Shown: positions 16,975-58,600 of the stretch, in pieces | Layout of the letters: each line of letters opens with the position of its first letter | Numbering within the stretch: the first letter of the stretch is position 1 | Assembly: GCF_026210795.1 (NCBI RefSeq) | Contig: NC_089439.1 | Coordinates: 3,472,001 to 3,536,000, forward strand | DNA length: 64,000 bases | DNA from: Rhizophagus irregularis | Taxonomy: Eukaryota; Glomeromycota; Glomeromycetes; Glomerales; Glomeraceae | Reading direction: 5' to 3' | Position numbers and translations under genes: made by a program | The notes under the pieces: generated by a model | Seen by the model: only the letters and a program-made list of their open reading frames with translations | The model's database searches: none | What the model was told of the DNA's origin: nothing

Positions 16975-18256
16975 CAGTGTGTTGCAAAAAAAACTGGAAT
17001 TTTATTCACATGACATAAATCAGACTTACGTACCCAATTTGTATCCGATTTGGAAAATCTAAAATGGAAAATCGACATGACGATCATAACCATAAATCCC
17101 GACCTAATTCGTAAATAATATATTTATGTTTTTCCGAGCTACTGCGCCACAAAATGACAGTTTCAAAGAAAGAAAGGCAGCGACAAACAATTTTACAATT
17201 GTGGAGTGAGGGTATGCGTAAAGGGACTGAAATACACAAGATTACACGCATCCCACTCTCCACTATATATGATAATATTAAAAAGTTAAAAGAGGATAAC
17301 ATAGTAAACCGAAAAAAGGGAAGTGGTCGCCCAAGGAAAATTACCGGCAAATTTTCCAGGTCCCTCGGACAAAGTATCCGAAGAGATACATCAGTTCCAA
17401 CGAGGACTTTGGCCAAAAAATTGGGCCAAATGGGCCTTGAAGTATCCCACTCGACAGTTTCAAGGCACTTAACTGTCCATGGCTATAAAAAATCACTTCC
17501 AAGGGCGACCCCAATGCTTACTGCTGCGCATAAGCAAAAACGTATCGAATGGGCGCAGCAGCACATTAATGATAATTGGAACACAACACTTTTTTCGGAT
17601 GAAATGGCCTTCCAACTCTTCTGGAACACTGTGAAGCGTTGGCATAAGAAAATTCAGCCAATACGCCCCATGCCAAAAGACAGAACAAAGATTTTTACAT
17701 GGGGCGGATTTTGCGTAACGGGCAAAACAAGTTTGTTTTGCTTCCGTCGAATAATGAATGCCGAATTTTATGTTGAGATCCTTGAAAATCATATTCCGGA
17801 GATTGATGCAATGCTCGGTGATGATTGGCGGCTCCAGCAAGACAATGACCCGAAGCATACTAGCCGTCTTGCTAAAGAATTCCTCCAAAACAATGTCCCG
17901 GAAGTCATGGATTGGCCCTCAAATAGTCCTGACTTAAATCTGATAGAAAATTTATGGGCTATTGTTAAGGGGAATGTGAAGCGCCGAATGCCAAAAAATC
18001 TCAATGAATTGGAGAGTTTTATGGCAGAGGAATGGTCGGCAATTCCGGATACCGTGATAAAGAATCTCGCCGGTTCAATGAAACGACGTTGCGAGCTAAT
18101 TATCGAAAATAATGGAGAACGAATCTCCTATTAAATTATATTAATAGAAAGAGCTGGTTTCTAGCTCTTAAATAAAAAAAAATTTACTATGTTTTTATAT
18201 TCTCAATGTGAAGTTATGGCCGTTTACTTTATTCCGGTTTTTTTTGCAACACACTG
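16975..18256 (+). mobile_element. Tc1-like transposon, structurally complete
   Basis: 1282 bp flanked by TA. Left end CAGTGTGTTGCAAAAAAAAC and right end its complement, about 30 bp of terminal repeat with few mismatches. It is inserted in a TA-rich tract of R1 copy 1. One uninterrupted transposase ORF fills the centre. Confidence 0.95.
17154..18134 (+). CDS. Tc1-type DD34E transposase, intact
   Basis: 326 residues without stop or intron, the normal length for Tc1 transposases (about 340). Two helix-turn-helix units lie at about residues 10-55 and 65-105 (LSTIYDNIKKLK; VSHSTVSRHL). Catalytic residues are FSDEMAFQ (D1), QQDNDPKHTS (D2) and SPDLNLIENLW (E), with 34 residues between D2 and E by count. 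The GRPRK-like segment GSGRPRK at about residue 50-60 resembles the family's AT-hook. It cuts and pastes at TA sites. As the only uninterrupted full-length transposase in the window, it may be active or recently active. Confidence 0.93.
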   Translation: MTVSKKERQRQTILQLWSEGMRKGTEIHKITRIPLSTIYDNIKKLKEDNIVNRKKGSGRPRKITGKFSRSLGQSIRRDTSVPTRTLAKKLGQMGLEVSHSTVSRHLTVHGYKKSLPRATPMLTAAHKQKRIEWAQQHINDNWNTTLFSDEMAFQLFWNTVKRWHKKIQPIRPMPKDRTKIFTWGGFCVTGKTSLFCFRRIMNAEFYVEILENHIPEIDAMLGDDWRLQQDNDPKHTSRLAKEFLQNNVPEVMDWPSNSPDLNLIENLWAIVKGNVKRRMPKNLNELESFMAEEWSAIPDTVIKNLAGSMKRRCELIIENNGERISY

Positions 18257-27283: not shown

Positions 27284-27483
27284 ATTAATCCTAGAAATGC
27301 GATTTTACAACCATTAGATTCGTCTTGCTGAGACGATTCCAATAAGCTATATTTCATTTTTTTCTGATCACTGGATTAAAAGTTAGCAAACTGCCTGATT
27401 GGTGACTGATTGATGCCTGATTTTTCACTTTTCGACCTGTGTAATGTTTGTTAAATATAAATATAAAAAATTTGAAGGTAATG
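27284..27483. other. Short gap with a palindrome fragment
   Basis: Contains ACCATTAGATTCGTCTTGCTG near 27311, like the centre of the 2790-2957 palindrome. Otherwise AT-rich and without a gene. Confidence 0.4.
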
Positions 27484-28367
27484 TTTTACCTTCAAAACTA
27501 ACGTCCAAAACCATTCTTTGGCGTCCAGCCAGGACCTAAAAAAAAATAAAAAAATGAACGTAAGTAACGTTTGTTAAATAATAATATAAAAAAAATAATT
27601 CAAAAGTAAAGGTTTTACATTCGAAATTAATGTCTGGAGCCATTCATTGGCATCCAGGACCTATAAAATATAAAAATGAACATTTAGTAATGTTTGTTGA
27701 AATAAAATTAAAAAAATAATTTGAAGGTAAAGTTTACCTTCGAAATTAGAGTCTGGAGCCATTATTTGGTGTCCAGGACCTAAATAAAATATAAAAACGA
27801 ACGTTTAGCGACGTTCGTTAAATGAAGTTAAAATATAAAAAAAATGAACATTTACTACTGTTCGTTAAATTAAAAATATAAATTAAAAAAATTCGAAATG
27901 AAGTCCAGAGCTGTACTTTAGCTTCCAGGACTTAAAAATATGAAAAACGAACATTAGTGGCGTTTATTAAATAAAAAAAATTATTTATTAAGATTCAGAA
28001 GTTAACATACCTCCGAATTTTAAAATCATCAATAGGTTCCATTTGGAATCTATAATATATATTGTTTTTTTAAAAAAAATAAATTAAAGATTTGGAAGTA
28101 AAGCATACATCCGAATTTCAAAATCATCGATAGGTTCTATCTGGAACCTATATAATATAATAAAAATTATTATTTTTTTTTTAAAATAAATTAAAGATTC
28201 AGAAGTTAATATACCTCCGAATTTTAAAATCATCAATAGGTTCCATCCAGAACCTATATGATATAAAAAAAAAATTTTTTTTTTTAAAAATAAATTAAAA
28301 TTTGGAGGTAAGCATACCTCTGAATTCCAAACTAAATCATCGATAGATTCCATCCAGAACCTTATAA
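27484..28367 (-). repeat. Tandem splice-module array C, left part
   Basis: Read on the minus strand, each unit is a T-rich tract ending TAG, a short conserved exon-like segment, then a donor (GTAAAA, GTAAAC, GTATGT or GTATGC). Candidate micro-exons: 27490-27535 (46), 27619-27660 (42), 27738-27779 (42), 28011-28049 (39), 28109-28147 (39), 28215-28253 (39) and 28318-28360 (43). Candidate introns are 59-83 nt where adjacent. Branch-like ACTAAA or CACTAAT lies in the spacers. Two subfamilies are visible (before and after about 27990). The array continues at 32899 after the DDE2 insertion. Confidence 0.75.
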
Positions 28368-28776
28368 GGCCAAATAAATAAAATAGTTAGTTTCTTATAA
28401 AAATAAATAATAAAATTTGACACGGCTGCCTGGAAAAAAAATTTATTTTAAAAAAAAATTTATCCAATTTCTGAAAGATGATTGGTTAGCTCTGTGAATA
28501 AATTTTTCCCCCACCTGGTGACCCAGGCTCAAAATTTTATAATTTTTTATTCACCCAGCGACCCAGATAAAAAATTTATTAAAAAAATGAAATTTTTTTC
28601 CACCCGGTGACCTGAGAAAAAAAGTTATTACAAATAAAAAACTTTTTTCCCACCCTTTAATTACGATTAGATGTTGAAATAATCTTTTTTTTAGCTAAAG
28701 CTGCTAAATTTCTAATGGTAATAGTTTAGTCTTTCCTTTTTTCTTGTCTATTGAAAGTTAAAATAAAATTTAAAAA

Positions 28777-41532: not shown

Positions 41533-44500
41533 CTAGCTGTAGCCCGCTGCTTCGCATCGGGTTTTTCAGGTCGGTGGTGCAACAACAATAAATTGAAACA
41601 ATAAAAACGTGATAATGAAAATCTTAAAATTTGAATTCAATGTATACACATGACAATGATAATCTTCATACATACACATGACAAAGATAATCAAAATCCG
41701 AAAAAAGAGAAAAAAAAATCGATTATTAACTTATTAACTTGTACAATTTCGTACATAGGGTCACTTTTTACACAATAAATTTTCTCAGTGAAAATTTTCG
41801 TAAAAGGTAATAAAATTGTTATTATAAAATTCTAATATTATACAAAAAGACATACAATTCTTAAGCAAACACTTCCTTATAAACCACATTCTGAGTCTGA
41901 CCTTTCTGAGATTTCACACTACTGTTATCTATATGAACCTTAATGTTCTGATATGAAGTGATTCTCGACAATGCAACATACAGTTGGCCATGAGAAAAAA
42001 CTGGTTGTGGCAAATAAAGACCAACACGACTTAATGTTTGACCCTGAGCTTTGTTAATAGTTAGAGAAAAAGCCACACGAATGGAAAACTGACGTCGTTT
42101 CAGAATAAAAGGTAAGTTGCTGTCAGAAGGGCTTAGTGTCATTCGAGGGATAAAAACACGGCTGCCAACATGAGAGCCAGAGATAATTTCGGCCTCAATT
42201 ACTTTGTTCTAAAGAGCTCGACAGATCAGCCTAGTTCCATTACACAGACCTTGAGATGGAGCTAAGTTTCGTAATAAGATAATAGGCGCTCCCACCTTCA
42301 ACTTCAATTCACCAGGAGGAACATTAGGAATTTTTAAGGATCTTAAAAACTCAGGTGAATATACTTGAGGTTGGGATGTATTGCCTTCATCAGATAAATC
42401 TACAGAGTCAGCACTGGGATAGATTATTAAATCACTAGGTAATTGATCTAACACCAGCTCAGAAATCTTTTCAACATCAACATTTTTGGGCATCAAGATT
42501 GCTTTTCTGACCATATAATCCACATTTTCATAATTCTCAATCAAGCGTGAATAAACAAAATTGATAAGTGCTGGTAAACCTCCTTTAGCCATCACCAAAT
42601 CAAAAGGTAAGTTTATACTATCTTCTGTACCAGGAACAATGTAATAATTACCATCTCCAATATCCAAAAGAAATTCGGCAAATTTCTTTTGCTTTATGGT
42701 CTCCTGTGGATCAAGATCTTGACGAAGTCTCATATTAATAGTTAATTTCATTACTCTCAAGTGTTTCCATAAAAAAGAGCGAGTCAAGCATGATGAGACA
42801 ACTTCAGCTCTAAGGGAACATGGTATAACTGGTAAAACCTGCCTAAAATCACCTCCAAATACAAAAACCTTTTCACCAAAAGGCTTATCAACGCAAGTAA
42901 TATCACGTAAAGTCCTATCCACAGCTTCAAAGGCGAACTTATATAGCATTGGAGCTTCATCCCAGATGAAAAGCTTAGCTGCATTAATTAAACGGGCTTC
43001 TCTACTTCTACGGAAAATGTTGCAGGTTGAAAGTTCATGTAATTTCAGAGGAATTCTAAAGCGTGAATGGGCAGTTCTTCCACCATCAATTAAAAGTGCT
43101 GAAATACCCAAAGAAGCTACAGCTAAAGCGATTTCTCCACAGGATCTAACAGTTGCCAGCAAGGTATTATACAAAAAAGTCTTACCGGTACCACCAGGAC
43201 CATCAACAAAGAAGCAGGTACACGTATCATGAATAGAAGACAAAACAGCATAATAAATAGCTCGCTGGTCTTTATTCAGCAAAGGAACATTTTGATTTAA
43301 TGCAGTTTGCAATAGTGTAATATCATAAGACATTTCTTCTCGAATCAGTTGGTTTAACGCATCAGGACCATTAAGAAATCCAAAGCCTCCCAAAAAAAGA
43401 GGTATATCAGGAAAATCGTTTAGTGATTTTGCATTCAACTGCAAGTAAGATTCCAATTGTCTCAAGGCTTCCTGTTTAACTGCATCATTTATATCACTAT
43501 AAAGATCACGATTCTGATATAAAATGTCTTCACAAAGAGCAAGTTTATGATTATTCCACAGAATTTCAGATGCAGCGGGCTGACAAAAGATAAGAATGGT
43601 CGCAAAAAAAAGACGTAATTGTTAACCCATTCTTATATAACAAACATGCTTCTCTCAAACAGACATCCCATTCGGTATCATCTTGAAGAAGGCCTAAACG
43701 AATACAGGCTTCCTTAAAACTTGCACATACATGACCTTCAACTGTCCTCAAGTCATCAAAACTGGAAGCACCTCTTACATGAGTAAGCAACATTCGCAAA
43801 TAGTAACGTTTACCTTCCGAAGGTTGCACCATATACAGTCTCCCAATCGCACGCGTAGCTGTTTTTCGTATATTTCACTTATGATCAGACAAATTCCAAG
43901 TATAATAAAGTGGAAAGTCAACATATTTGTAATTATGAGCAGCGGGATTATCAGCATTTTCTTTAAACCAAGCAACTAAGGTAGTTACATGAGAGTCAGC
44001 ACGATCTATAACTTGATGCAAATTATCATCATTATGGAAAGTAATAAACTGCTTCTCAGGAAGATGAATCGCCAACCTTTGAACATTTGGAGAACGGCCA
44101 TGCATCCTGTAATGAAAAATTCTTCAAATCGCCTCTAAAGACAAAATGTACCTCACGTCAAGATACATCTTTATCTTGTCAACGGGCTCTTTATCAGGTG
44201 GACGCAAGTCGGTAGCACTGTCAGGTTATGAGAGCGCAACAGTAGCTCGATCGTGACCTTTGTATATGTATTTATACAGGTATTTAATAGCCAAAACTGA
44301 ATTACAGATTTCAACATTGATATGGGCGTCATATTTTTCTACCAATTCAACATTATGAGGAACCACCCATCGATTATCTAAACGGACGCCACGCCTAACT
44401 TCAACAAAAGAACCATTATCACGCCTATGGTAAAGAGGATATCCATCACAATTGTCCTGTGTGGAGGATTGAAAAGATTTTGGATAATGCTTCTGGCAGA

Positions 44501-46362
44501 ACCCATCTTTCATACACGGAGCTGAAGGATTAAGTATACCACACGGACCATGCATCATAGATGATATAACGGTCTCGTAAGCAAGAGGGTGAACATTAGG
44601 ATCAGGGATTTCTGCAGAAACAATTGAATCATAATCATCCGCAGAATGAAGCTTTGAATCTTGCGAAAGAATCAGAAAAATATGAGCATGCGGTAAACCG
44701 CGTTTCTGAAATTTGATCACGTAAACAAATGCGGCAACTTTACCGAGGCAGTGTTTTTCACATAAATCCTTTAACAATTCTCGTAGTTTTATATGAAAAA
44801 CACGTGCCGTCAAGTCAGGTCTATCCATGGCAGTTTGATGTAACAACAATTTTCTTGTAACCTCTTGCCACTTGGGATTACATGTGAAGGTGACAAAAAG
44901 GTCAGGCTTTTCAAAGTGACTCACGATGGCCATAGCATCTTGATATAGTTGGTACATCTGACGCGGATCACCAATAAACGATGAAGAAAGAATTATTCAA
45001 CGTCCAATATTTTGTCCAACGTGTCCAGCATCTCTATCATCAGCATCTCTGTCATCTGCATGTATGGCATCGGCAACTCCTTTATACAAATCCAAGCGAA
45101 GGGATGATTGATTAAATCTGAGATAATTCAAACGATGCTGTTCTATTTTTGAATACTGGTCTACAATATACTGCTGATACAAATGGCTAGCACATTGCAA
45201 CCAATTACTGGGTCTAATCTGTAACCTGTAAGAATAGAATTGCATAGGAGTCACCATATCTCTTTAAGTATTTAATTGAGGATTATCTGTAAGCGGTATA
45301 TCAAGATGCCATCCATCATCACCGTTTGGGAACAGCAGCACGTATTGAAGAGGATCATAGAAAGGATGCAATCGGATATTCTTTGTAAAGTCCCATCACG
45401 GAAGTTAAGAATAATATCCCGATTAGAAGGTTTAACTTCATAACCATCACCAACCATAATCGCAGCAACATCAGAAGCAGCGGGACCATTATAGCGGCAG
45501 GCATCATTCAATCGATCACAATAAATCCGCATCGAAATATCAGCTGAATCAGCATCATTTTGAAGCAAATCTCTCACTTGGCGAAAATTCTGGATATATG
45601 GGTTGTAAGTATCCAACATATTCTGCAAATTCTGCAATATTTTGGCATTCAGATCACGCATAATGCGAAGCCGATTGTTATTTTCATGATCGCTGTCATA
45701 GATATAGAGCTGAGCAAATACCGGTTTCTGTCCTTCATCCAGCATCAAAGATCCTATGCGATGATAAATTCGGCCATGGATTTTAAAATTCGATACACCT
45801 TGACCTTGAAAGCTTTCGTCAATATTAGCACCAAAAGAAGAGCATGCCAAAATTCCGTTGTAAGCTCTGATATTTTTTTGAAAACTTATTGCTTCCGAAT
45901 GGAAGGAAGTATATAAATCAAGTAGATAAGGAGGAGGATCAAGCACAGGAGGTAAATGGACCTTGCCACCCGCACAACACATAGCAAACCTAGGAGAAGA
46001 TAGGCTGCTGTTCCGATTCTTCTTACACAACCAAAATCTCGTGCCACAATGTAAACACGTTTGATCGATGATTTCCAGATCAAAACGCCCTCCATCAAAT
46101 CTCCTTTGTTGGTGACATTCAACTCTCTCTCTTTGCAGTCTTCTTTTATGTGATACAGGAGTCTCGCTTGTAGAAGACATATTGGAGCAGTCAAAGAAAG
46201 ATTAGCGTCAAGGACAAAATATAAGATAACATCGTGCAAATTGGGCAACGTGCATAAATTAACATATGAACACGTGAAGAAAAAGGAAATCAGGGTATCA
46301 GCACAACGGCATGGGGAAGAATACAACAAAACGAAGGATTAGCATGGTACAAATAAAAAAGA
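41533..46362 (-). mobile_element. Helitron, minus strand
   Basis: The 3' end (low coordinate) has the hairpin CCCGATGCGAAGCAGCGGG about 10 nt before CTAG at 41533-41536, followed by T: the standard CTRR end in an AT target. A TC start preceded by A fits at 46362, but this 5' border is a choice among possibilities. It encodes a fused Rep and PIF1-like helicase protein, as rolling-circle Helitrons do. It is inserted within element X. Confidence 0.88.
41861..46180 (-). pseudogene. Helitron Rep-helicase protein
   Basis: Begins at ATG 46180 (MSSTSETPVSHKRR) with a zinc-finger-like CLHCGTRFW. The Helitron-like Rep domain follows: VTFTCNPKWQEV, the HUH motif GLPHAHIFLIL and the tyrosine motif KYLYKYIYKGHD. 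The helicase shows Walker A DGPGGTGKTFLYN, FIWDEAPML, FGGDFRQVLPVIP and, at the C terminus, TINKAQGQTLSRVG with YVALSRI. Rep would nick and join DNA, and the helicase would unwind it. Breaks are a frameshift near 45265, TGA at 44997, TAA at 44226, TGA at 43875, a frameshift near 43615 and TAG at 42209. No introns are evident. Length before damage is about 1,430 codons, normal for the family. Confidence 0.92.
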
Positions 46363-46762
46363 TAATTAAAGCAATATTTTTTTTCGGATTACATTGGAAA
46401 AAAGTAGTTTTTTTCAAACAACTTTATTATAATCAAATTAAAATTTATTCAAAAAATTCATTTTTTTAAACAACTTTATTATAATAAAATTAAACTTGAT
46501 TTGAAAAACATTAAAATAATCATTAACTACAAAAACGGTAAATCAACAATTTATACAATGTTATACACTTATAAATAAGCAATAATTAATTTACCAACGT
46601 TATTACTTAAAATATGTTTAAGGAACAGATAATGTTAACTAATTTTCTAGAAATAAAAAAAATAAAATAAAATAAAAAATCACTTTTAAAATGTTTATTT
46701 TTTACAAAAGGAACGTTTATTTTTTACAAAAGCAACACGAATTAATACAAAATTAATATATA
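46363..46762. other. Element X interior, AT-rich
   Basis: Short repeats such as CAACTTTATTATAATAAAATTAAA near 46420 and 46475. No gene. Confidence 0.45.
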
Positions 46763-48348
46763 CAATCCTCTCTCGATATAACGAACCCTAGGTTCCAGCT
46801 GATCAGGGCTTCGTTATAAGCAACTTCGTTAACACTATAACGAATTATTCGGTATTGTATAATGAATTCTTCGGTATAGGAATATCGGTTATACAGATCA
46901 TGTGACTTGTTGATCTGATTACCGATAATTTAACATTTTTTTTAATCTTTTTTTTATAGGGGTGCTTTCTAAACTTCAAAATAGATGCCTAGAATGAGAA
47001 GTAAGTGGGAACTGGGGGGTTTTTTATATTAATTTCGTTTAAAAACATTTACTAATGTTCTTTTTTTATTTTTTTATTATAGGGAACTTCCTGGACTTCG
47101 AAATGGACGCTTGAAACAAGAAGTAAGTGGGGAACTCGATTTTTTTTATTAATTTCATTTAAGAACATTTACTAATGTTCTTTTTTATTTTTTTTATTGT
47201 AGGGACTTCGAAATGGACGCTTGAGACAAGAAGTAAGTGGGGAACTCGATTTTTTTTATTAATTTCGTTTAAAAACATTTACTAATGTTCTTTTTTATTT
47301 TTTTTATTGTAGGGACTTCGAAATAGACGCTTGAGACAAGAAGTAAGTGGGGAACTCGATTTTTTTTATTAATTTCGTTTAAGAACATTTACTAATGTTC
47401 TTTTTTATTTTTTTTATTGTAGGGACTTCGAAATGGACGCTTGATGTTACGAAGTGTGGGACAACTCAATTTTTTCTTTTAATTTCGTTTAAGAACATTT
47501 ACTAATGTTCTTTTATTTTTTTTATTGTAGGGACTTCGAAATGGACGCTTGAGACAAGTAAGTAAGGGGACAACTCAATTTTTTCTTTTAATTTCGTTTA
47601 AGAACATTTACTAATATTCTTTTTTATTTTTTTTTATTGTAGGGACTTCGAAATGAACGCTTGAGACAAGAAGTAAGTGGGACAACTCAATTTTTTCTTT
47701 TAATTTCGTTTAAGAACATTTACTAATGTTCTTTTTTTATTTTTTTATTATAGGGAATGCTTCCTGAAGTGTTCTATATAAAAATGTTTATTATAATTCC
47801 TTTTTTTTGTAGGAATGCTGTTTAACAATAACTGACTATATAATAAATAAATTATTAATGATATATTAATTTAACTAGGAGTGTCCTTACCCCTGTGATA
47901 AATATAAATTAATAACAATTCACATCGAATCCTAATACAACTGAATTAATGTAAATTAATGTAATTCTGCCTAAATATTAAATAAAATAGCCAGAATTAT
48001 TAATCCCGATACGATCCCGATACAATCCTGATCCATAATTTAAATATAAAACACAGGGGTGATATTTAATGTCATAATGCATCAATATTTATTAATAATT
48101 ACATTTAATTATAAAGAAATTCTTCGTTATAACTGAAAAAAATTCATTATAAAAAAAATCCGTTATATCGAAAGGCATTTTTATATAAGAAATTCACACA
48201 CTTTACTTCGTACTACGTTATATGGTAAATAAATAGTAAACTTCGTTATATCAAGGTTTTTTTCATATTTAAAATCGGTACCACACTGTATGATCCGTTA
48301 TATCATGTTATTCGCTATATCGAGGTTCGCTGTAGAGAGGGGTGACTG
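46763..48348. mobile_element. Non-autonomous Tigger-type element carrying array A
   Basis: Right end complement reads CAGTCACCCCTCTCTACAGC; left end CAATCCTCTCTCGATATAAC; both are flanked by TA. Repeated GTTATA/CGTTATATCG motifs fill the ends, as in Tigger-derived elements. It has no transposase. The centre is the tandem array at 46960-47820. Confidence 0.8.
46960..47820 (+). repeat. Tandem splice-module array A
   Basis: Each unit has, in order, TTTTTATTGTAG, a micro-exon GGACTTCGAAATGGACGCTT plus GAGACAAGAA, donor GTAAGT, and a hairpin AAGAACATT-TACT-AATGTTCTT exposing the branch site TACTAAT. Predicted internal exons: 47083-47122 (40 nt), 47203-47232 (30), 47313-47342 (30), about 47423-47452 (30), 47531-47557 (27) and 47643-47672 (30). 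Predicted introns: 47001-47082, 47123-47202, 47233-47312, 47343-47422, about 47453-47530, 47558-47642 and 47673-47753 (78-85 nt). TACTAAT starts 25-32 nt before each acceptor. In most units the exon length is a multiple of three. Confidence 0.85.
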
Positions 48349-48679
48349 TATACAAACAAAACTCAACTAATCAGGTTTATTAAAAAAAAAACGTGAAAGT
48401 AGTAAAAAACGTGAACAAAATAGCGATGATGAAACAAAGAAAATGGCGTAAACAAAGGGGGTGACACAACTGTATAATTATTTATACAGGTAATCTTAAC
48501 GTTACAAATTTTTTTAATTATATAGATAAAAAAAAAGATTATTAACTCATATTTTGAGTTTTAGCAAATTAGTATAGATTTGAAATGTGATAATTTGATT
48601 TTTAGCAAATTAGGTCTATTTTAGCAGGAGCAAAAAGTACTTAAATTCATACAGATCAGTTATGAATTATATATGTGAT

Positions 48680-48923: not shown

Positions 48924-49380
48924 TATGTGATGTCTGAGGTCCTTCTCTTTGGATTATATAATACAAATACAATAAATAAATATTTTACATATCGGTACCC
49001 GATATCACTGGTCAAAATAGTCCAAATCGGCCAAAATTCAACCAGCCAATTTTAGGCTAATTTATGGTCTAATGCTGGTCGAACTTTAGCTGATTTTTTG
49101 GCTGCAGTTCGCTGCCACTCACCTAAAGTTCGGCTTGAAATTTCGGCCAAAATTCAATTAACATTCGGAACAATTTCAGATAGCAAATTTTGGTGAATAG
49201 TTTTCCGAATGTTACTTAATTTATGTTGCAAATTTGTACTAAATTTATTTACTAATATTCAGCCACAACTCATTTTATTTAATATTCACAATAAATCACA
49301 ACTTTATTTATAAATGCATATTACAAATAAGTATTACTAATCTACAATTCCACAATCACATAATTCATGTATTCATATAT

Positions 49381-51490
49381 ACTTACAAATCTTGATCTTT
49401 TGGAAACCCACCGAAACTATAAAAAAAAAGAAAAGAACGGTTAGTAACCGTTCCATAATATTAAAAAAAAGCAAAAAAACCCAAGATTCTACTTACGAAT
49501 CTTTGGTTTTTTTCTGTTTATCAGAACCCACCCGAGACACCAAACCTATAAAAAAGAAAAAAAGAGCGGTTATTAATAACCGTTCATAATAATATTAAAA
49601 AAAAATAAAAAATAAACCAAGATTCGTAAGTACGAATCTTGGTTCCACTTTTCTAAAGATCCCAAAACCTACAAAAAGAAAAGAACGGTTATTAGTAAAC
49701 CATTCGTAGTAATAAAAAATAAAAATAAAAAATAAAAAAAGAACCAAGATTCGTACTTACTTACGAATCTTGGTTTTCCGTTGTTCTTCGAAAGCCCACT
49801 GAATCTAAAAAAATAAAATAAGAACGGTTTATCAGTAACCGTTCGTTAATATTATAAAAAAAAATAAAATAAAACCAAGATTCGTACTAATCTTGGTTTT
49901 TTCCATTCTTCGAAAGACACCGACCTAAAAAAAAAGAAAAAGAACGGTTAGAAACCGTTCGTAATAATAAACAAAAATAAAAAAATAAAGATTCATACCG
50001 AATCTTTAGTTTTTTCCGTTCCTTGGAAAGACGGAATCCACCTGAACCTATAAAAAAAAAATCAAAAGAACGGTTAGTAACCGTTCCATAACATTAAAAA
50101 AAAAAGATTCGTAAGTATATTACTTACGAATCTTTATCTTTGGGTTTTCGTTCGTTCCCGGAGCCCACCGCACCTAAAAAATAAAGAAAAAAACGGTTAT
50201 TAGTAACCGTTCGTAATAAAGAAAAAACAAAAAAAAATTATAAAGTAAAGATTCGTACTTACGAATCTTTATCTTTGGGTTTTCATTTTTCGGAAGCCCA
50301 CCTGATCCTATAAAAAAAAAGAAAAAATGGTTAGTAAACTATTCGTAATAATAATAAATAAATAAATAAATTAAAGATTCTTACGAATCTTTGGGTTTTC
50401 GTTCTTCGGAAGCCCACCCAATTCTAAAAAAAGAAAAGAACGGTTATTAGTAAACCGTTCATATATTAAAAAAAAAAACAAAAAAAATTAAACCAAGATT
50501 CGTACTTACTTACGAATCTTAGTTTCTTAGTTTTCCGTTCTTCGGAAGCCTACCAGATCCTAAAAAATAGAAAAGAACGGTTATTAGTAACCGTTCGTAA
50601 TATTTTTTTAAAAAAATAAAAAAAAAAATCCAAGATTCTTACGAATCTTTGGAATTTTCCCATTCTTCGGAACACGGAAGCCCACCTGAACCTATAAAAA
50701 ATAAAAGAACGGTTATTAGTAACCGTTCGTAACATTTTTTTTAAAAAAAATAAAAAAAAATCCAAGATTCTTATGAATCTTGGAATTTTCCCGTTCTTTA
50801 GAACACGGAAGCACATCCGAACCTATAAAAAATAAAAAAACGGTTATTAGTAACCGTTCGTAATATTTTTTTTTAAAAAAAATAAAAAAAAAATCCAAGA
50901 TTTTTACGAATCTTGGAATTATCCCGTTCTTCGGAACATGGAAGCACACCCGAACCTATAAAAAATAAAAGAACGGTTATTAGTAACCGTTTGTAATATT
51001 TTTTTTTAAAAGAAATAAAAAAAATCTAAGATTCTTACGAATCTTGGAATTTTCCCGTTCTTCAGAACATCCGATCTTAAAAAAAAGTAAAGAACGGTTA
51101 TTAATAACCGTTCATAATATTAAAAATAAACAAAAAAAAAAATAACCAAGTTTCGTACTTATGAAACTTGGTTTTTCCATACTTCGGAAGCCCACCCGAA
51201 CGGCTGAACCTAAAAAAAAAGTAAAAAAAAGAACGGTTAGTAACCGTTCATATTAAATTAAATTAAAAAAATAAAAAAAAAATAAACCAAGTTTTGTATT
51301 TACAAAACTTGGTTTTTCCATACTTCGGAAGCCTACCCGAACGGCCGAACCTAAAAAAAAAGTAAAAAAAGAACGGTTAGTAACCGTTCATATTAAAAAA
51401 AAATAAAATAAACTCCAAAGAATTCATACTTACGAATCTTTGGAGTTTCTATACTTTGGAAGCCCACCCGAAAGCTGAACCTATAAAAAA
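49381..51490 (-). repeat. Tandem splice-module array B, about 16 units of 115-140 bp
   Basis: Read on the minus strand, each unit has TTTTTTATAG, a micro-exon (GTTCAGGTGGGCTTCCG-like, 30-49 nt), then a donor GTAAG within a palindrome such as AAGATTCGTAAGAATCTT. A hairpin GAACGGTTACTAATAACCGTTC then exposes TACTAAT or TACTAAC. Well-formed examples: exon 49387-49416 (30 nt), exon 49497-49545 (49 nt), and the 80-nt intron between them (49417-49496). Hairpin copies lie near 49438, 49568, 49685, 49826, 49945, 50069, 50195, 50328, 50440, 50578, 50708, 50840, 50972, 51097, 51233 and 51371. Confidence 0.85.
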
Positions 51491-51503
51491 AAAGTAAAAA
51501 AAG

Positions 51504-51600
51504 TGAAAGGGGGAAGGGGAAGGGGAAGGAAGGAAAAGGGAAAGAAGGGGAAACGGGGAGGGAAGGGGAACGAAGGAAAGGAAAGGGAGGGAAGAAAAAA
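51504..51600 (+). other. Polypurine tract with G-quadruplex potential
   Basis: About 95 nt of almost pure A/G on the plus strand, with only two C residues near 51554 and 51571. It includes GGGGGAAGGGGAAGGGG. It could form a G-quadruplex or triplex. It sits directly after array B. Confidence 0.8.
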
Positions 51601-57174: not shown

Positions 57175-58600
57175 TAAGGATGGGCCCTCAAATGATTTTT
57201 CAAATCCGCAATATTGCAGATTTTGGAGTCAAATTGCAGTTAGTAATCCGCAATTCCACAATTCTGATTGGCTAATATTTTTAAATAATAAATTATTTTT
57301 TAAATGTTTATAACGATAAATAAATAAAAATGTTTTTTAAATCAATATAATAAATTTATTTATTTATTTATTTATTTGTTTATCATTCGTCTTAAATATA
57401 GACTGATATTTTTCTAAATTGCATAACTGTGCCGTTTCTCAGAAAAAATTCTGGACAATTTTGTCCATTTTTAAAATAAGTCTCCTCGCTATATATATTT
57501 TCATCCAGCAACCCTATAAAAAGAAAAGAAATGTTAGTGACATTTCTTTTTAAAGAAAATTAGCAATAAACATCTTTTCCTTCGGTTCTCCCTTACCTCA
57601 ATTTCAAAATTCTGGTCATGTCTAATTATTAAAACCTTACGAAAAGAAAAAAAAATAAATTAATTAAATTTATCAAAAAAAAATAATGAAAATTTTCTGG
57701 TCCTCCCTTATCTCAATCCAGAATTCTGGTCATACTTTTCGTCTGGCAACTTTACAAAAATGAAAAAAAAAATAAATTAGTGAAAATTATTAAAAAAAAG
57801 TAACAAAATTCCTTCCCAGTCCTCCCTTACCTCAATTCCAGAAGTTTGGTCATGCTTTTCGTTTGGCAACTCTACAAAAATGAAAAAAAAATAAATTAGT
57901 TTGAAAATATTAAAAAAAAAAAGCAACAAAAACCCTTCCCGGTCCTTCCTTACCTTAATTTCAAAAGTCCAGTCATACTTTTCTTCCGGCAACTCAACAA
58001 AAACAAAAAAAAATAAATTAGTTATTAAAAAAAATAACAAAAACCCTTCCCGGTCTTCCCTTATCTTGAAAAAATGAAAAAAAAATAAATTAAAAAAAAA
58101 ATAACAAAAATCCTTCCCGGTCCTTCTCTTACCTCAATTTTAAAAGTCCAGCCATACTTTTCGTCCGGCAACTCTACAAAATCAAAAAAAAAATAAATTT
58201 ATTAAAAAAAACAACTTGCTGTTCGGTTTCTCCTTATCTACATGACTCCATTTTAAAAAGTTCAGTCATAATTTTTGTCTGGAAACTTCAATAAAAAAGA
58301 AAAAGAAATCATCAGATGATTTGTACTATGCAATTCATCTGATAATCTGTGTCAGACTGGTGGACTATTATTGGCAAATCCGCAAATCTGCAAATGTTCT
58401 GCAATTTTGTAAAGTACTGCAATTGTACCGCAATTGAATTGCGATACTTTAGATTATTTGCGGAATTGCGGAATATTTGCAAAATTGCAAACAATTGCAA
58501 ATTGCGGATTTGCAGATATTTAGACTTCAAAATCCGCAATGTTTCGCAATACCGCAAATTGCAATTATTCCGCAATTGTCTATTTGCGGCGTCATTCTTA
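57175..58600. mobile_element. hAT-type non-autonomous element carrying array D
   Basis: Ends TAAGGATGGGCCC and (complemented) TAAGAATGACGCC, both YARNG. The 8-bp flanks are CCTTCAGA (57167-57174) and CTTTCAGA (58601-58608), 7 of 8. Subterminal regions are dense in CCGCAAT/ATTGCGG motifs (57210-57260, 58370-58590). Removing it rejoins the interrupted Plavaka-like coding region. Confidence 0.83.
57514..58175 (-). repeat. Tandem splice-module array D
   Basis: On the minus strand: TTTTTGTAG, micro-exon AGTTGCC..GGAATTGAG, donor GTAAGG, branch-like CACTAAC/ACTAAT. Well-formed exons of exactly 41 nt lie at 57831-57871 and 58133-58173. Introns 57514-57596 (83 nt, with CACTAAC) and 57872-57953 (82 nt) have GT..AG ends. 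Other units have mutated donors (for example ATAAGG near 57711) or acceptors. Confidence 0.78.

Follow-up and report, generated by a model that had tools for sequence, protein, structure and literature searches.

A non-autonomous transposon of 1.59 kb with terminal inverted repeats (TIRs) lies on the forward strand at 46763..48348 of the window, the 64,000-nt stretch of Rhizophagus irregularis DNA analyzed here, and carries a tandem array of exon-intron modules, array A. It is delimited by ends that it shares with its copies and by flanking TA (46761-46762 on the left, 48349-48350 on the right). The left TIR, CAATCCTCTCTCGATATAACGAACC, occupies 46763..46787 (+) and the right TIR, which reads CAGTCACCCCTCTCTACAGCGAACC on the minus strand, 48324..48348 (-); most other copies start on the left with CAGTCCCC instead of the window's CAATCCTCTCTCGATATAACGAACC. 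Ahead of the array stands a lone 3' splice site, TTATAG (46955..46960, +), to which no donor was assigned within the array, followed by a first exon of 40 nt (46961..47000, +) ending AATGAGAA and then GTAAGT. An earlier note on this DNA had described seven successive modules at 46960-47820 with donor, TACTAAT and acceptor in that order, and reading of the sequence confirmed them. The seven predicted introns, all on the forward strand, span 47001..47082, 47123..47202, 47233..47312, 47343..47422, 47454..47530, 47558..47642 and 47673..47753, with donors at the first and acceptors ending at the last position of each (the sixth donor may instead be 47562), and TACTAAT lies at 47050, 47170, 47280, 47390, 47500, 47609 and 47721, respectively. 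Donor, branch site and acceptor are all consensus in six of the seven modules, and the remaining one, that of intron 5, has a degenerate donor (GTGTGG). An additional TTGTAG ends at 47812, after the seventh acceptor, within the terminal exon region (47754..47847, +), which contains a TAA stop at 47823-47825 in the frame of the P0001 gene model and AATAAA at 47842-47847. The inner exon lengths are mostly those given earlier, except that use of the GTGTGG donor makes them 40, 30, 30, 31, 27 and 30 nt, so that four of the six are multiples of three and two (40 and 31 nt) are not. The 9-bp hairpin claimed to hold the branch site in its loop exists (AAGAACATT/AATGTTCTT), but the predicted loop is TACT only; the AAT of TACTAAT, and with it the adenosine expected as branch nucleotide, falls in the predicted stem. 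No Rfam match was found in the window.

The genome searched comprised 146.75 Mb in 32 contigs. A search with the array sequence returned at least 47 matches (40 of 111 first-look candidates scored), which after joining of adjacent matches gave at least 40 places including the window's own, and all 40 were fetched. The outer limits are the same as those of the window's element in most of these dispersed places; both TIRs are present in 39 of the 40 (L043 is without the right end), and TA stands on both sides in 37 of the 39 elements with both ends, the exceptions being L023 and L030. The outer 10-nt flanks have a mean identity of 32-33%, with one pair at 90%, whereas over most of their length the copies themselves share about 90-96% identity; four diverged copies (L042, L043, L045 and L046) reach about 72-79% over their best stretches. 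Because the ends are common, the flanks different and TA present on both sides, array A is assigned as cargo carried inside a DNA transposon 1.59 kb long whose ends are inverted repeats, and the involvement of a transposon suggested earlier is thus borne out by about 40 copies of a TIR element enclosing the array.

The ends are fixed while the number of modules varies between copies, the 39 elements carrying 1, 2, 3, 4, 5, 6, 7, 8 or 14 branch-site motifs. A typical module is 110-120 nt long and consists of an exon of 30 or 40 nt followed by an intron of about 71-85 nt with GTAAGT, TACTAAT, a T-tract and TAG. Across copies most introns are 71-84 nt and most exons either 40 or about 30 nt, and decayed donors account for the outliers. 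The shorter exon, of 30 nt, seems to be the derived one, since in the parts read of the diverged relatives L042, L045, L046 and L053 only exons of 39-40 nt occur. In 13 segments of diverged relatives, of which two are no array modules and one belongs to another type, identity to the window is 69-100% in the donor columns and 77-100% in the branch columns, which is short of perfect conservation. Different intron-exon chains are carried by other elements whose ends are similar: L049 and L050 have GTATGG introns and one A-type module, and L054, with both ends, and L051 and L052, with the left end only in the fetched stretch, match array B of the window (see below) at 66-73% over stretches of 117-337 bp.

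At least 163 matches to the DDE_1 transposase domain were found in the genome (150 of 469 candidates scored). Inverted ends resembling those of the element were seen in two of eight fetched DDE_1 loci, with 3 and 4 mismatches (L069) and 3 and 5 mismatches (L073) to the 27 positions of the element's left end, and the other six loci have other ends. On the strength of these two loci a pogo/Tigger-type parent with a DDE_1 transposase is the likely mobilizer. Two further mobile-element signatures were noted in the window: PIF1-like helicase and Helitron_like_N domains at 42209-44996 (-), beside the transposon, representing a Helitron-type element, and a Tc1/mariner-like transposase frame (HTH_Tnp_Tc3_2, DDE_3) at 17115-18134 (+).

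The window holds further arrays, of which B is clear and C and D are weaker. Array B (49330..51560, -) consists of about 15 exon-intron modules and is separate from the array A transposon; its donors lie in hairpins such as AAGATTCGTAAGTACGAATCTT and its branch sites in AACGGTTACTAATAACCGTT. Array C (27440-28420, -) has exons starting GTCCTGG or GTTCTGG and donors in palindromes such as GAAGGTAAACTTTACCTTC, and array D (57400-58300, -) has a repeated exon like AGTTGCCAGACGAAAAGTATGACC with GTAAGG donors and is 67-68% identical over about 600 bp to the arrays in the TIR elements L049 and L050. Arrays C and D each show repeated exons, donors and T-tract acceptors, their branch sites are mostly degenerate, and the motif scan did not cluster them. 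For the window's arrays B, C and D, a simple pattern search found no TIRs. Tandem repeats are common within the window, among them an 81/161-bp repeat at 88-636 with repeated AAAACGTTGCGCAACGTTTT-like palindromes. On contig C1, 13 apparent intron-exon arrays were counted by eye among 29 loci with evenly spaced TACTAAY, based on the 100 matches listed (0.28-6.6 Mb; places within 1 kb merged), and, as a rough extrapolation, a few hundred arrays may exist genome-wide. Exon-intron modules were present in each of ten fetched C1 stretches, five examined as marked-up sequence and five as parsed B-type arrays, and relatives of array B on this contig are L057, L058, L061, L063 and L065. Seven of the 29 C1 loci (278822, 2877215, 3011436, 3530126, 3929449, 5135207 and 5545304) contain a dispersed repeat in which several TACTAAY occur together with CTTTGCAGGTAT. 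A second chain with a different intron type, having GTGAGTAAA donors, TACTAACC and short C-rich tails, was observed at L056:150-620, immediately upstream of a typical array.

The earlier note remarked that a random AT-rich satellite would have no need of the ordered splice triplet, and the strict consensus does exceed chance: none of 20,000 dinucleotide-shuffled units contains it, and genome-wide the strict triplet was found 705 + 548 times, compared with 20 + 15 for the pattern read backwards. At middle strictness the triplet occurs in 0.135% of 20,000 shuffled units. The loose triplet is present in 9.4% of shuffled units and in the reversed unit too, and its frequency in shuffles limits the informative value to the strict consensus. 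Three TACTAAY at 90-120 nt spacing are likewise enriched (796 + 642 versus 62 + 42 in the control), although many of these places are plain satellites.

The branch sites were also compared with regard to local folding. For 88 unique branch sites (array A, array B and other arrays) the mean local fold was -5.6 kcal/mol, and -2.9 kcal/mol (sd 0.23, 200 permutations) when the right flanks of the same sites were swapped between sources; for 62 strict introns from among the 100 genome matches listed the values were -5.8 and -2.7 kcal/mol (sd 0.25, 300 permutations). At least six predicted pairs surround the branch site in 47 of the 62 strict introns (swaps 59%, maximum 73%), and 15 of the 62 sites are without such a hairpin. 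An uninterrupted stem of at least five pairs outside the motif occurs at 37 of 70 unique sites (53%; swaps 19%, maximum 31%), and these 37 sites use 22 different stems, many of which vary on both sides; in all of these hairpin statistics related sites are counted several times and the events are not independent. The predicted folds suggest that branch sites tend to lie in hairpins whose stems vary yet remain paired. Two gene-like stretches of the window, scanned for candidate introns, yielded no more than two, of which one has a predicted fold and the other has none. The donor hairpins of B-type arrays show a modest effect (mean -8.4 versus -7.0 kcal/mol, sd 0.30, with swapped flanks).

Conservation was determined on 212 units from the elements, which are related to each other and not independent, and which were cut at the acceptors, so that the acceptor columns are circular. 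Of the 212 units, 203 retain the donor GTAAGT and 205 retain TACTAAT, whereas the intact fraction is 42-74% for exon 6-mers clear of the donor (partly since two exon types are mixed), 0 to 89% for spacer 6-mers, about 85% for the hairpin arms and up to 98% for T-tracts. When only G/C columns not in CpG are considered, the three that belong to the motifs rank higher than 20 others (one-sided Mann-Whitney p = 0.02). These peaks at donor and branch site bear on the possibility that array A is a passive minisatellite, in which a captured or held exon-intron fragment was duplicated in tandem, splicing has no role, and the signals persist only through the youth of the copies and homogenization of the arrays. 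The 90-96% identity of the copies is in keeping with such an origin, as are the richness of the window in tandem repeats and the small contrast between motif and background within 30-nt-exon units (donor 0.984 and branch 0.992 compared with exon 0.948 and spacer 0.955, in the 132 units that measure 106-113 nt). Duplication alone, however, does not explain why many arrays of differing sequence share the ordered signals, nor why hairpins with different stems remain paired, and with the conservation peaks located where they are this origin is considered rather unlikely.

The earlier note had also proposed a peptide of variable repeat number, and a gene for a selected repeat protein (TSKWTLETRR or GLRNGRLRQE), similar to a small modular effector, was considered. 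Public R. irregularis gene-model proteins do join exons at the predicted sites (5 A-type and 31 B-type), some with TSKWTLETRR/GLRNGRLRQE-type repeats, although such models are annotation and possibly the output of ab initio prediction. R. irregularis is the named species for every one of the 36 proteins matching the array peptides. P0005 contains RNIGYTDH, encodable by the element's own 5' part, and then NEKELPGLRNGRLRREGTSWTSKWTLETRR; P0001 ends at the terminal stop, and its first donor is apparently shifted. Spliced in silico, 18 of 38 copies stay open through the parsed array, including those with the most branch sites among the open copies (L022 with 14 and L019 with 8), but several of these open copies are short or interrupted where a donor was lost, and the other 20 contain a stop; one further copy was without an anchor for this procedure. 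The third-position excess expected of coding sequence is absent from both open frames, the codon-position identities being 0.963/0.836/0.884 for TSKWTLETR and 0.831/0.875/0.966 for GLRNGRLRQE. B-type exons are stop-free in all frames in 25 of 53 cases (300 dinucleotide shuffles gave 15.5 on average and 24 at most), but stops are just as scarce on the antisense strand (27 of 53), so that composition accounts for their scarcity. The missing coding signature and the stops met by 20 of the 38 copies after splicing suggest that what is kept is the signals for splicing and not the peptide; a peptide under selection is not supported, and a repeat-protein gene is regarded as improbable. The arrays explain some public R. 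irregularis gene models, and the reading of these as ordinary proteins is probably wrong. Highly improbable is an introner, a mobile intron seeding introns in genes, as in the intron spawning raised earlier: introner families often have TIRs or target-site duplications (PMC9860276) and symmetrical fungal introner-like introns form hairpins (PMC8469720), but the transposon ends lie outside the array and not at intron ends, and among the 100 places listed for the hairpin core (162 in total) 99 are within copies of the element and one (C10:2207555) is in another array.

The reading favored here, with moderate confidence, is that of a transposon with about 40 copies and 1 to 14 branch-site modules. 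Splicing of transcripts that cross it is predicted to proceed one module at a time. Transcription would come from a neighboring gene or start inside the element; the lone 5' acceptor would take an upstream donor, each module would then splice to the next, and the message would end in the terminal exon with its TAA stop and AATAAA. No exit donor was identified in the element, and insertion could therefore truncate host transcripts. The pogo/Tigger-type DDE_1 transposase would act in trans on the element. Whole modules may be added or removed by unequal exchange or slippage, and such changes would be tolerated, each module supplying the signals for removing its own intron. Since the predicted introns are likely to be removed singly, a change in the length of the element could leave its message intact. 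Selection on the transposon lineage would thus act on the splice signals rather than on the peptide, and these are kept most likely because the transcript remains processable at any module number; the arrays would persist for the same reason, gain or loss of modules leaving the transcript processable. Spliced retro-copies were rejected as proof of splicing, no exon-exon junction being found as genomic DNA in the genome (≤1 mismatch). More tentatively, the element may belong to a class of transposons and arrays that amplify complete exon-intron modules with the branch site in a hairpin and the RNA structure under selection, a nursery possibly delivering ready-spliced, length-adjustable multi-exon genes to new sites.

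The origin of new introns and of multi-exon genes is an open question, to which a mobile chain of self-contained exon-intron modules, variable in number and with its signals kept, would offer a direct answer open to testing; hairpins that stay paired although their stems differ widely would be an unusual case of RNA structure at the branch site of short introns. No title or abstract describing such arrays was found in the open-access literature, most subscription papers being outside its scope. Introners are mobile DNA tied to intron sequence, some of them TIR elements (PMC9860276), and in this link they resemble the present element, whereas the intron of array A forms a repeat within a larger element, with no isolated copy among the places listed; the name "Rhizophagus" is absent from the main text of that survey. 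The internally symmetrical stwintrons of Hypoxylaceae are likewise sequence-related fungal introns with inverted symmetry and predicted hairpins, but their inverted repeats are described as intron-terminal and 45-55 nt long (PMC8469720), compared with a short stem of about 6-11 bp around the branch site here. The SP7-like effectors, also of R. irregularis, have imperfect tandem repeats and a conserved intron before the first repeat (PMC11333574), whereas here one intron per repeat is predicted; no link to them as a source of the arrays was found in the literature. Pack-TYPE transposons are non-autonomous TIR elements with gene-like content. In the present element the content consists of tandem modules, and a donor host gene was not found. 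The element resembles pogo/Tigger-type non-autonomous (MITE-like) TIR transposons in its inverted ends starting CAGTC, its flanking TA, its many copies with no transposase inside, and the DDE_1 elements with similar ends in this genome; it differs from these in its cargo, an expandable array of exon-intron modules.
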